A stretch of 64,000 nucleotides of DNA from an uncultured Pseudomonadota bacterium. GTDB taxonomy: Bacteria > Myxococcota_A > UBA796 > SXON01. Shown piece after piece: positions 10,144-14,969 of the stretch. The stretch is from positions 62,001-126,000 of the forward strand of contig CAIUMM010000111.1 of assembly GCA_903900265.1 (NCBI GenBank), written 5' to 3'. How positions within the stretch are numbered: position 1 is the stretch's first letter; each line of letters starts with the position of its first letter. The notes beneath the pieces are model-generated. The model made no database searches, was not told where the DNA came from, and worked only from the letters and a program-made list of their open reading frames with translations. The translations under genes and the position numbers were made by a program.

Positions 10144-10629
10144 ATGCGAAGCTCCTTTCCCCCTCTCCTTGTTGCGCTAACGTTGCTGGTCGGCTGCACC
10201 GGAAGCGCCTCGGACTCCGAGGCCGACTCCGAAGCCGCTCCGGCGCCCGGACCGGGTACGCTGGTGTTGTCCTTCCAGATGGAGGCGGACTTGATCCCGT
10301 CGATGGAGGTTCCGCCCGTTGGCACCTTTGAGGGCTCAGTTTTTGCCGAGGAGGACTGCACCGCGATGGGCCCCAACGAAGGCGCAGTCGCCATCGAAGA
10401 CGTATCGGCGGCGCTGGACCTCTCCGCGGATGGAGGCCCTTCCGAGCCCCTGTACACCACGCAAGCGATGGACGCGCAGGTCGTTTGGGTCGTCGGGTGT
10501 CTGGACGTCGACGCCAACGGCTGCGGCGACGCCGATGATCCGATCACCATCCCCAATGACAACAAGGTCGCTGTTCTTGCCGATGCCGCAACCCCGTTCA
10601 TCGTGCAGATGAACATGCTGCGCCCATGA
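10144..10629 (+). CDS. Predicted secreted lipoprotein upstream of the copper monooxygenase-like gene
   Basis: 161 residues starting at the ATG at 10144 with a lipoprotein signal peptide (LLVALTLLVGC, predicted lipidated Cys at residue 18) and an acidic Ser/Glu/Ala/Pro linker. The rest is a compact beta-rich looking sequence with two cysteine-containing turns (EEDCTAMG and VVGCLDVDANGCGDADDP); the D-x-D-x-N-G-C-G-D-x-D stretch resembles a calcium-binding loop. No family was recognised. The stop overlaps the next start as ATGA (10626-10629), so it is translationally coupled to the copper monooxygenase-like lipoprotein and probably acts with it. Confidence 0.8.
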   Translation: MRSSFPPLLVALTLLVGCTGSASDSEADSEAAPAPGPGTLVLSFQMEADLIPSMEVPPVGTFEGSVFAEEDCTAMGPNEGAVAIEDVSAALDLSADGGPSEPLYTTQAMDAQVVWVVGCLDVDANGCGDADDPITIPNDNKVAVLADAATPFIVQMNMLRP

Positions 10630-11645
10630 CCCTTCTCCCTGAGCTCCCGATGCGCCTGTTTCCCCTCGCCTGCTCTCCCCTCGCCTGCTCTCCCCTCGCC
10701 AGCGTACCCGCCGCTTGCTTGCTGCTCGCTGCGTGCTCCGGAGCTCCGGACTCCGGCAGCGCCGAAAACGTGGTCGACATGACGCTCACGGAAGGCTTGG
10801 ACTATCCGGCTCCCACCGACGCCGATTTGATCTGGGACATGCCGGCGTTTGAGGTCGCGCCGTACACCGAGACGCAGATGTGCTTCGTCGGTACCTACAC
10901 CGGCGAGGACGCTGCGCTGGTGGGCTTCGGCGGCTACCAACAGGCCGAGTTCGGGCATCACGTCCTCCTGTTAGGCACCTCCACGAGCGCGGTGGACCTC
11001 CCGGACGGCACGTTCTTCGACTGCACGCGCACGCAAGACCTGCCGATGGACTCGCTTGAACCGCTCATCCTCCCGACCAAGGGCAACGGCGAGCAGTTCG
11101 GCATGGCGCTGCCCACCGGCATCGCGACCAAGCTGCGCACCGGTCAGCGGTGGATCCTGCAGGTGCACAACGTGAACACGACCGCAGACACGCTGAAGGT
11201 CAACGCGATCGGCATCGCCCCGACCATCCCGATGGAAGACGTGGTCGATTGGGCGGCCCCGTGGACCACCAATCGCGTCGGATTTACCGTCCCCCCGCAC
11301 TCCGCGCAGAAGTTGGAGTTCAATTGCACCTTTGACGTCGAGTACCACATGCTCTACCTCATGGGTCACATGCACGAATGGGGTACGCACTTCAAGCTCG
11401 AGATGCTCGACGCCGACGGCGCGCCGACCACCATGTACGAGCAGGAATGGGACCCGTCGTACCGGGACACCCCGCCGATCGTGGACTTCTCCGCGGATCC
11501 GCTGCTCGCCCCCGCCGGCACCACCTGGCGCACGACCTGCGAGTGGTTCAACGACACCGATGACGCGCTCGAGTTCCCCTCGGAGATGTGCGCTTCGGTC
11601 TCGATGGTCTACCCCGCGCTCACCGCTGACATCTGCTCGGATTGA
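10626..11645 (+). CDS. Lipoprotein related to type II copper (PHM/DBH-like) monooxygenases
   Basis: 339 residues with a lipoprotein signal (lipobox around LLLAAC, Cys37). All six copper ligands of peptidylglycine/dopamine-type monooxygenases can be placed: the CuH site as H111-H112 (GHHVLLLG) and H181 (LQVHNVN), and the CuM site as H248 and H250 (MGHMHEWG) with M321 (SEMCASV). This is read by motif alignment from memory of PHM. Known family members hydroxylate C-H bonds using copper, oxygen and an electron donor; the substrate here is unknown. The signal peptide contains a 15-base tandem repeat. The ATG at 10626 overlaps the previous stop; ATG 10650 is an alternative start. A cytochrome-like gene follows 2 bases after its stop. 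Confidence 0.8.
   Translation: MTLLPELPMRLFPLACSPLACSPLASVPAACLLLAACSGAPDSGSAENVVDMTLTEGLDYPAPTDADLIWDMPAFEVAPYTETQMCFVGTYTGEDAALVGFGGYQQAEFGHHVLLLGTSTSAVDLPDGTFFDCTRTQDLPMDSLEPLILPTKGNGEQFGMALPTGIATKLRTGQRWILQVHNVNTTADTLKVNAIGIAPTIPMEDVVDWAAPWTTNRVGFTVPPHSAQKLEFNCTFDVEYHMLYLMGHMHEWGTHFKLEMLDADGAPTTMYEQEWDPSYRDTPPIVDFSADPLLAPAGTTWRTTCEWFNDTDDALEFPSEMCASVSMVYPALTADICSD
10661..10700 (+). repeat. 15-base tandem repeat inside a signal peptide
   Basis: Two full copies and a partial third copy of a 15-base unit (beginning TCCCCTCGCC) encode the repeated peptide L-A-C-S-P in the signal sequence of the copper monooxygenase-like lipoprotein. The unit is a multiple of three, so copy-number change would keep the frame while altering the hydrophobic segment. 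Confidence 0.85.
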
Positions 11646-11647
11646 AC

Positions 11648-12007
11648 ATGCTCACCCTGCTCGTACTTGTGGCTTGTAAGCCCGATGTCGTCACCTTCAC
11701 CCAGGTTCAGGACGACATCTTCACCAACTCCTGCGCGTTCTCCAGCTGCCACAGCGACGGCGGCGGCGCGCAGGGCCTGAGCCTCGCCGAAGGCAGCGCC
11801 TATGACGCCATTGTCGGCGTTCCCTCTACCCTGTCGATGACGCTGAACCTCATCGAGCCCGGGGACCACGAGAACAGCTTTCTTTGGCAGAAGTGCGCCA
11901 ACGCCGAAGGCATCGTCGGAGAGCCGATGCCCCAAAGCTCGCCGTTGGACGCCGAGCGTCTCGCGGAGCTCGAGGCGTGGATTGACAATGGCGCGCTGAA
12001 CGACTGA
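11648..12007 (+). CDS. Small cytochrome c-like lipoprotein with a CX4CH haem motif
   Basis: 119 residues. A very short lipoprotein signal (MLTLLVLVAC, Cys10 followed by Lys at +2) precedes a haem-binding-like motif C29-x4-C34-H35 rather than the usual CX2CH. Near the C-terminus E-P-M94-P-x3-P-L followed by AELEAWIDNGA resembles the axial-Met region of secreted c-type cytochromes common in Myxococcota and Planctomycetes. Inference: a lipid-anchored, single-haem electron carrier. It starts 2 bases after the copper monooxygenase-like gene, so it is a natural candidate for its electron donor. The ATG at 11648 is chosen; a TTG two codons earlier overlaps the preceding stop. Confidence 0.75.
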   Translation: MLTLLVLVACKPDVVTFTQVQDDIFTNSCAFSSCHSDGGGAQGLSLAEGSAYDAIVGVPSTLSMTLNLIEPGDHENSFLWQKCANAEGIVGEPMPQSSPLDAERLAELEAWIDNGALND

Positions 12008-12779: not shown

Positions 12780-14969
12780 TCAGCGGCCGCCTACACGATG
12801 AGAGAGTCCAGTTGAAGCACCGAACTCATAGAGGCTGTGGTTATAACACCCCACGGAGCAGCCCTGCGAGTACATTTTCTCACGCCGGGCCTGCACTTCG
12901 GGGGATGCCCAAAGCTCGGACAAGGGCGTCTGGAACACATTGCCAGCGACCAACCCCTCGCCTCCCCAGACACAACAGGGCAAGAAGCTGCCGTCAAACC
13001 GCACACCGTACTGATCGATGAATCCTAAACACCGGACGGGACCCGATTCCCCCCGATGGTAGCCCAGCGCCTCGGCGTAGTAATGGGCCCGAGCGGCGAC
13101 TCCAGCGTCTCCTGCGGCGATCTCCGCGACCGCCGCCTGCCAGACCGCGGCGTCTTCGGCGCGCAGGTACAAGTCCGGCGCGTCGTTGACCGGCCAGAAG
13201 TCAAAGCGGGCGCCCGCGGCTCGGACCATTTTCCAGACCGCGACGAGCTCGCCGACGTTCTCGCGCGTGACCGTAAAGTACACGCACGGGTCGAGTCCGC
13301 CGCCCGCGCGAGACTGCGCGACGACGCGCTCCAGCGCGCTCCAGGTGAGCGCGTGGCTCCCCGCTCGCCCCCGCAAGCGATCGTGGGTAGCGGCGATACC
13401 GTCGATGCTCATCGACAGACTGTCGATGCCTGCATCGGTGATTCGCTGCCAATGACGCTCCACGAGCGTGCCGTTGGTCGTGACGTTCACCGATAAGCCG
13501 CGGGCGCGCGCCGCGGCCACGATCTCAAAAAACTGGGGATGTAACAGCGGCTCTCCGCCGGTCAAAACCACCGTGCGCGTCCCAATCCGCTGCGCCTCGT
13601 CAAACAAGCGCTCAGCGTCGGCGAGCGGAACATTCTCCTTGCCTTCCCACAAGTCACAGAACGAACAACGTAGGTTGCAACCCCGATTGATGAGGAACAA
13701 CAACGTCAACGGCTTGGACGCCGTGCGCGACGGCAGGTGTCCGTCCACCGGCTGCGTCGCCACAAAATCCCGACCACGGCCCTGATGCACCTGCTGCCAC
13801 GCCTGAGCCACCGCGCGCCAATCGTAGGCGCCGACCCAGCGACGCGCCGCGCGACCGATGTCAAGGCGGCGGGACGCATCCCACAGCAGCGCCTGCACCG
13901 CGTCTGCGAAGTCCTCGCGCTCCGCAAAGACAATGTGCCGCTCCCCCTCAACGGCGAGCCCTTCTGCGCCCAGCGGGGTGGAGACCACCGCCTTCGCTGC
14001 CGCAAAATACTCCAGCAGCTTCATCCGCGTGCCGCCGCCCGCAAACACGGGGCAAAGGCAGATGTCTGCCGATCGAATGTGCGCAGGCAGGTCTTCGACC
14101 GGCCCGGTGAACACGATCGTCGCGCCCCCTCCGCGCTGGCCGGCAAACTCAAGCGGGGGGTTCAGACCGGCGATGAGGATCGTCGCGGACGCCGGCAAGC
14201 ACGGCGCGACCTCACGAGCGAGGAACTCTACGGCCTCGCGATTCGGACCGTAGTGCAGCGTGCCGTGAAAGAACAGCACCGGCCCGCCGCCCAGTCCGTA
14301 GCGCACGCGCAGGTCCAGCTTGCGTGCCTCGTACGCCGAGATGTCCACCCCGTGTGGAACGTGCCAGATCGGGCGCGTGACGCCGGCGCCGCGCAGGCGC
14401 TCCCCGTCCTCGGTCGAGCAAACCACGACGTCATCGGCGCGATTGAGCAGCGCGACCTCGATGCGTCGGAGCATCGAAACCCGCGCGGGAGCGAGATCAT
14501 TCGTTTGCGCGAGGCGGTCGAACTCGGCGTTGTGGGTGCCCACGGCGATGCGCCCGCCCAGCACCCGCTTGGCGATCCAGGCGGGCACGATGAACCCGGG
14601 AAATTCCGGTTGCCACACCTCTACCTGCTCCTGACGCCCCACGTAGAGCACCCGCGCCCACCAAGCCGGATCGAACATCGACCGGTAGAGCAGGGTTTCT
14701 TCCTCCGGATATCCAGCTCGGGCAACCCAACGTGCAGCGCGCGCTTGGTTGCGCAGCAACGGGGCCTCCTCAAAGGCTCGAAACCGAGGGCCGAAGGGAA
14801 CCGCGGTCCACCCGGCAGCATCCACGCGCCAGTATTGGTCGCGATCTTCGGTGACTACGCTGACCACGTCCCCCGCGGCGGCGAGCGCCTCGACCGTACG
14901 CACGATCTTGACCGCAGCGCCATGCCACGCAGGGAACAGGTCCGGCCGTGTGAGTACGGCGATTCGCAT
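12780..14969 (-). CDS. Fusion of a GT4-type glycosyltransferase and a radical SAM/SPASM-like enzyme
   Basis: One uninterrupted 729-residue frame. Residues 1 to about 395 form a GT-B glycosyltransferase of the GT4 type: an N-terminal ALTRPDLFPAWHGAAVK-like start, HVPHGVD at 203-209, and the nucleotide-sugar region GGGTRMKLLEYFAAAKAVVS at 311-330. Residues about 415-729 are a radical SAM domain with the [4Fe-4S] ligands C431-x3-C435-x2-C438, the TGGEPLLHP segment and a C-terminal cysteine set (C647, C665, C666, C704, C708) resembling a SPASM auxiliary-cluster region. Such a single-chain fusion is unusual. Inference: coupled glycosyl transfer and radical modification of one substrate. No radical SAM partner peptide is evident beside it. 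Confidence 0.88.
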   Translation of the reverse strand: MRIAVLTRPDLFPAWHGAAVKIVRTVEALAAAGDVVSVVTEDRDQYWRVDAAGWTAVPFGPRFRAFEEAPLLRNQARAARWVARAGYPEEETLLYRSMFDPAWWARVLYVGRQEQVEVWQPEFPGFIVPAWIAKRVLGGRIAVGTHNAEFDRLAQTNDLAPARVSMLRRIEVALLNRADDVVVCSTEDGERLRGAGVTRPIWHVPHGVDISAYEARKLDLRVRYGLGGGPVLFFHGTLHYGPNREAVEFLAREVAPCLPASATILIAGLNPPLEFAGQRGGGATIVFTGPVEDLPAHIRSADICLCPVFAGGGTRMKLLEYFAAAKAVVSTPLGAEGLAVEGERHIVFAEREDFADAVQALLWDASRRLDIGRAARRWVGAYDWRAVAQAWQQVHQGRGRDFVATQPVDGHLPSRTASKPLTLLFLINRGCNLRCSFCDLWEGKENVPLADAERLFDEAQRIGTRTVVLTGGEPLLHPQFFEIVAAARARGLSVNVTTNGTLVERHWQRITDAGIDSLSMSIDGIAATHDRLRGRAGSHALTWSALERVVAQSRAGGGLDPCVYFTVTRENVGELVAVWKMVRAAGARFDFWPVNDAPDLYLRAEDAAVWQAAVAEIAAGDAGVAARAHYYAEALGYHRGESGPVRCLGFIDQYGVRFDGSFLPCCVWGGEGLVAGNVFQTPLSELWASPEVQARREKMYSQGCSVGCYNHSLYEFGASTGLSHRVGGR

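Follow-up and report, generated by a model that had tools for sequence, protein, structure and literature searches.

A PHM/DBH-fold copper monooxygenase-like lipoprotein coupled to a putative cytochrome c partner in a bacterial three-gene cluster

Positions 10144-12007 of the window (the whole stretch of 64,000 nucleotides that was analyzed) hold three translationally coupled lipoprotein genes, identified from the open reading frame list and the sequence and called here LIPO, MONO and CYT. Sequence comparisons and structural models strongly support the view that MONO is a relative of the PHM/DBH-fold copper enzymes, and recurrent linkage and gene fusions strongly support a dedicated haem partner for such an enzyme. 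We think it rather probable that the trio is an extracytoplasmic, lipid-anchored redox system in which CYT feeds hydroxylation by MONO and LIPO binds MONO. Among animal enzymes, PHM and DBH are textbook cases, involved in making peptide hormones and noradrenaline, respectively, with ascorbate as reductant, and the long-range electron transfer between their distant coppers is still debated. The genes described here suggest that bacteria power PHM/DBH-type copper chemistry via a built-in haem wire, not via vitamin C.

All three genes lie on the forward strand. LIPO (10144-10629) encodes a small lipoprotein with its lipobox cysteine at C18 (LVGC18, 10195-10197; invariant in an alignment of 29 rows, as alignment C5) and overlaps by ATGA with MONO (10626-11645; 339 aa), whose own lipobox cysteine is C37 (LAAC37, 10734-10736). 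The ATG of CYT (11648-12007) stands at 11648, two bases past the MONO stop, and the lipobox of this small protein (LVAC12, cysteine codon at 11675-11677) is nearly invariant in a 27-row alignment. An earlier note, made from the sequence of this DNA, had described MONO as a bacterial lipoprotein preceded, through an ATGA overlap, by a lipoprotein with a calcium-loop-like stretch and followed two bases later by a tiny lipid-anchored cytochrome, and each of these elements was found. The MONO signal peptide also contains a 15-base tandem repeat in 3.3 copies (10653-10700), which encodes ACSPLACSPLAS; the leader is longer than usual, and the repeat is not present in the relatives at L006-L008.

Searches with the single MONO sequence returned no significant match in Pfam, PDB or NCBIfam, and only profiles gave matches. 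A profile built from 52 relatives matched in PDB solely rat PHM (E 1e-8) and human DBH (6e-6), and in this alignment the HH, H, HxH and EMC motifs of the MONO family were laid on their PHM counterparts with the six ligands in register. For the Pfam families PF03712 and PF01082, the window MONO has no match, and PF03712 is matched by 18 of the 52 relatives. The AlphaFold model of MONO (mean pLDDT 91.9) was compared with PDB by Foldseek: ranks 1-31 are all PHM/DBH structures (E to 1.6e-16, TM about 0.68), and the matches after rank 31 are unrelated beta-rich proteins, e.g., viral capsids, with TM near 0.3. The predicted fold, whose comparison with PHM had been proposed as a check, is therefore that of PHM/DBH, and the model contains the two-domain beta-sandwich core of this class.

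The residues of the three-His CuH site and of the His-His-Met CuM site of the class are all found in MONO, in the PHM register. Their placement in two copper sites, which the earlier note had asked of the predicted fold, is supported by the profile alignment to PHM. The predicted CuH ligands are H111-H112 (10956-10961), profile-aligned to the HH of PHM (H107/H108), and H181 (11166-11168; PHM H172), and the predicted CuM ligands are the two histidines of H248-M-H250 (11367-11375; PHM H242/H244) and M321 (11586-11588; PHM M314), the latter aligned within DEMC/SEMC. The same residues at exactly these positions had been named in the earlier note, which took homologues lacking them as evidence against its reading; among the 85 MONO homologues of the order, instead, the five histidines are invariant and 84 keep all six ligands, the methionine being replaced once by His. 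This only ligand change among the 85 sequences is found in a stand-alone PHM-like paralogue of the window's own genome (L108, C49, 3737-4924), which reads DEHC, with His for the CuM Met. The Glu preceding M321 is invariant in the MONO family, and C86, C133, C305 and C322 are invariant or nearly so over the 85 homologues. C234 and C337 are both missing from the CXXCH-cytochrome fusions of the order, except for one row with Cys at 337, and position 337 is Glu in four stand-alone MONO-like rows. As judged from the alignment, the pairs C86/C133, C305/C322 and C234/C337 would fit the DBH disulphides C232-C283, C466-C488 and C390-C503, respectively (PMC4846438).

MONO thus shares with PHM (a domain of PAM; 1PHM, 3MLL) the predicted fold, the six copper ligands and the three disulphide cysteine pairs, but it is a bacterial lipoprotein of about 17% identity to PHM and is linked, apparently in the place of ascorbate, to a cytochrome c. 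The similarity does not extend to the substrate. PHM Arg240, Asn316 and Tyr318, which we take to be the residues binding the carboxylate of the peptide substrate, correspond to M246, A323 and V325 in MONO, and the commonest residues of the MONO family at these sites are A/L/M/S/T/G, V/N/A and V/A/F. Since the peptide-binding residues are not conserved, a peptidylglycine amidating role was rejected, and MONO may share the chemistry of PHM and not its substrate; as the Arg that stands two positions ahead of the PHM CuM HxH is not retained, the substrate must differ. With DBH/MOXD1 MONO has the catalytic core in common (4ZEL match).

CYT gave nothing significant in single-sequence searches of Pfam, PDB and NCBIfam. 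Its relatives match weakly the small cytochromes of Cytochrome_CBB3 and PSCyt1, whereas the window CYT matches neither and is set apart from both by CX4CH and an FSxCH signature; FoxE is the only significant PDB relative of the CYT profile. The haem attachment motif CAFSSCH (11732-11752) is of the CX4CH type, which is present in 27/27 trio cytochromes and also in the CX4CH fusions described below, so that this spacing is a signature of the family and not, as had been thought when the motif was first noticed, a rarity. C25, F27, S28, C30, H31 and the Met of an MP motif (M90-P91) are invariant across the 27 sequences, and this Met (11927-11929) is the probable distal haem ligand. At the sequence level CYT thus has the CXnCH motif and the distal Met or His of c-type cytochromes, and a cytochrome c assembly locus is present in its own genome, so that its maturation is possible.

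Relatives of CYT are common in the phylum without MONO, and close ones (L147, L148 and L150) have no MONO nearby. At L148 (G028:C170, 1399-1884) the CYT gene lies near rnhA as in the window, without an adjacent MONO or LIPO, and this locus is possibly a decayed trio. At L147 (G049:C382) a CX4CH relative stands directly 5' of a lipoprotein that is presumably of the planctomycete-type DUF1592 family, and CYT-type proteins may therefore serve other partners too.

No significant match was obtained for the single LIPO sequence in Pfam, PDB or NCBIfam either. Its AlphaFold model is a confident beta-sandwich (pLDDT 91.5), predicted to be transthyretin/CnaB-like, and the fold search against PDB found no confident relative, only weak matches (E >= 0.035) that include several CnaB-type pilin domains and TssJ lipoproteins. 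The calcium-loop-like stretch DVDANGCGDADD (10504-10539) is conserved in the 29 rows as DxDxN...D, with the first D in 29/29, the D at the third position in 26/29, N or D in 27/29 and the last D in 28/29. LIPO is the most specific partner of MONO: 31 of its 35 hits in the 63 genomes of the order adjoin a MONO, in a tally made by hand; of the other hits, at least one is a gene fragment where a contig ends. In DBH, too, there is an additional beta-sandwich, the DOMON domain with a probable metal site (PMC4846438), which is loosely like LIPO; DOMON, however, is fused to the enzyme and is a different beta-sandwich, and the donor of DBH is ascorbate, with no cytochrome c.

The MONO family occurs in 49 of the 63 genomes of the order, with up to nine members per genome. 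Three independent assemblies (77, 73 and 42% identity) have the trio with its gene order unchanged, all six ligands and CX4CH, a fourth at 32% identity having MONO alone, and the trio recurs in about 30 loci with differing gene orders and neighborhoods. We sampled 126 MONO genes from the order and from the phylum, presumably Myxococcota, picked by score and not at random, so that the counts are not population frequencies. Both partners are adjacent in 32, CYT only in 11 and LIPO only in 11, which places CYT beside 43 and LIPO beside 44 MONO genes, and MONO is fused to LIPO in one case, to a CX4CH cytochrome in five (one with LIPO adjacent) and to a CXXCH cytochrome in 11. From the four to six places at which a 6 Mb genome carries CYT-family genes, we calculate a chance adjacency of CYT of about 0.005 per gene. 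The survey of co-occurrence that the earlier note had suggested, with homologues never accompanied by the cytochrome gene as the outcome against it, thus came out on the side of linkage. The cytochrome partner is nevertheless not universal, since 67 of the 126 genes have no cytochrome, fused or adjacent; these comprise the 55 with neither partner and 12 with LIPO, adjacent or fused, and suggest that proteins of this fold can function with no cytochrome dedicated to them. In these paralogues the electrons may come from a different soluble carrier or from a small reductant. To call the system self-contained, as had been done, was too strong, both for these 55 genes and for the trio itself, which has no enzyme reducing CYT.

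In the window's family the trio is flanked by rnhB and rnhA and has nuo genes nearby, and elsewhere the neighbors differ. LIPO can be divergent (L065) or downstream (L170, L171, L173-L177, L179), LIPO and CYT can both converge on MONO (L070), CYT can be divergent (L171, L173), and there can be two CYTs (L071) or two MONOs (L049-L051, L053). Most loci of the group L169/L181-L186/L189/L201 have, instead of LIPO, a separate gene located between MONO and CYT that encodes a Cys-rich lipoprotein.

The same parts are also found fused. A CYT-family CX4CH cytochrome is joined to MONO at L174 and L202-L205, in other families of the phylum, and LIPO is joined to MONO at L168. The fusions of L202-L205 continue into a Cys-rich tail resembling the separate Cys-rich lipoprotein of the group above, suggesting that one three-part design is realized either by separate genes or within a single protein. 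The window's own genome has three further paralogues (C57, C26 and C217), in which an N-terminal CXXCH cytochrome domain precedes a PHM-like domain that retains the complete set of six ligands, and two of them (C57 and C26) exceed the cut-offs of both Cu2_monooxygen and Cu2_monoox_C. These bacterial proteins resemble the trio in combining haem c and a copper core, here in one lipoprotein, but they have CXXCH and not CX4CH, lack LIPO and form a separate, well-supported clade; no experimental study of them was found in the literature searched. In the tree of MONO sequences, one supported group holds the CXXCH fusions (1 change) and the CX4CH fusion needs 2 changes, indicating that haem and the copper core came together on more than one occasion.

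Because a Met-type cytochrome c is repeatedly found fused or linked to the copper core, an electron-transfer partner is the simplest reading. The PHM/DBH/MOX class is marked by ascorbate-dependent incorporation of O2 and by two coppers about 11 A apart. In PHM/DBH, O2 binds at CuM, CuH feeds one electron and ascorbate gives two electrons (PMC4846438, PMC6123673). By analogy, MONO would hydroxylate a substrate with O2 at CuM (H248, H250, M321), in a two-domain protein whose CuH site would be formed by H111, H112 and H181. CYT, anchored next to MONO as a monohaem cytochrome c with His/Met ligation, would supply the two electrons in ascorbate's stead, shuttling them from a periplasmic pool, presumably to CuH, and LIPO, as a calcium-loop beta-sandwich lipoprotein, would bind MONO and serve either as its scaffold or to present the substrate. 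In this scheme we infer the metal and haem loading, the direction of the electrons, the oxygenase chemistry and the role of LIPO. A donor is likelier than an acceptor because the O2-activating site appears intact. The dedicated haem donor proposed in the earlier note is thus borne out as a partner, by linkage and by CXXCH and CX4CH fusions to the copper domain, and as a donor it is plausible, with more support than the note itself could draw on. Its statement that no such system was known holds less well: the function suggested for the trio is plausible, but cytochrome-fused PHM-like proteins with known Pfam domains exist in the same genome. No description of bacterial PHM homologues linked to haem turned up in a full-text literature search, and most subscription papers lay outside that search, which makes it weak evidence of novelty.

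For the phylum as a whole, we would give an even chance to a class of extracytoplasmic copper monooxygenases that have a dedicated cytochrome c, separate or fused, in place of ascorbate as electron source and in which a beta-sandwich or Cys-rich lipoprotein is an obligate subunit. Bacterial PHM/DBH relatives wired to a haem protein would provide a defined electron source for the question of intercopper transfer. If the proposal is true, it would add an alternative and possibly older donor system that is not based on ascorbate, and would give access to a large family of periplasmic C-H hydroxylases that is so far unexplored.

Electrons could also flow the other way, with MONO as a PHM-fold copper oxidase or dehydrogenase of an organic or metal substrate and CYT as acceptor. 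Cytochromes c of the Met type normally have a high potential and can accept electrons, and FoxE, the PDB relative of the CYT profile, is an iron oxidase; we know, however, of no PHM-fold dehydrogenase. The Met/His/His of CuM and the whole ligand set are moreover those of the O2-activating PHM/DBH enzymes, which need a reductant (PMC4846438), and we regard reverse flow as unlikely.

It is quite unlikely, in our judgment, that MONO is an enzyme no longer and binds copper for storage, sensing or delivery, with CYT as redox partner in copper handling. The positions of PHM substrate contact are not conserved and MONO-like proteins have multiplied to many copies per genome, as this would allow, but the six ligands, the Glu before M321 and the cysteines are strictly kept in highly diverged copies, which is typical of a catalytic site, and the window ORFs include no copper-resistance genes beside the trio.

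A role of CYT as chaperone or stabilizer and not electron carrier, helping for instance LIPO to bind calcium or MONO to fold, has a precedent in TfcP of Myxococcus xanthus, a small extracytoplasmic cytochrome c serving, like CYT, one particular partner: it promotes the binding of calcium by PilY1 and probably does not carry electrons (PMC8833165). The conserved calcium-type loop of LIPO would be in keeping with such a role. TfcP, however, has CXXCH, a Cys distal ligand and a very low potential, whereas the Met of CYT is invariant; the fusions of CYT are with MONO and not with LIPO, and LIPO-MONO pairs occur without CYT, so that we hold this explanation to be very unlikely. That the three genes are mere co-inherited neighbors of unrelated function is hardly credible and was rejected: although the window's family keeps the trio in its rnhB/rnhA/nuo neighborhood, trios recur in unrelated neighborhoods with inverted genes, and pairs are fused.

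Downstream of the trio, on the reverse strand (12780-14969), the window encodes a natural fusion of 729 aa between a GT4-type glycosyltransferase (Glyco_transf_4/Glyco_trans_1_4) and a radical SAM-SPASM domain, a frame kept at 731-732 aa in L006 and L007.
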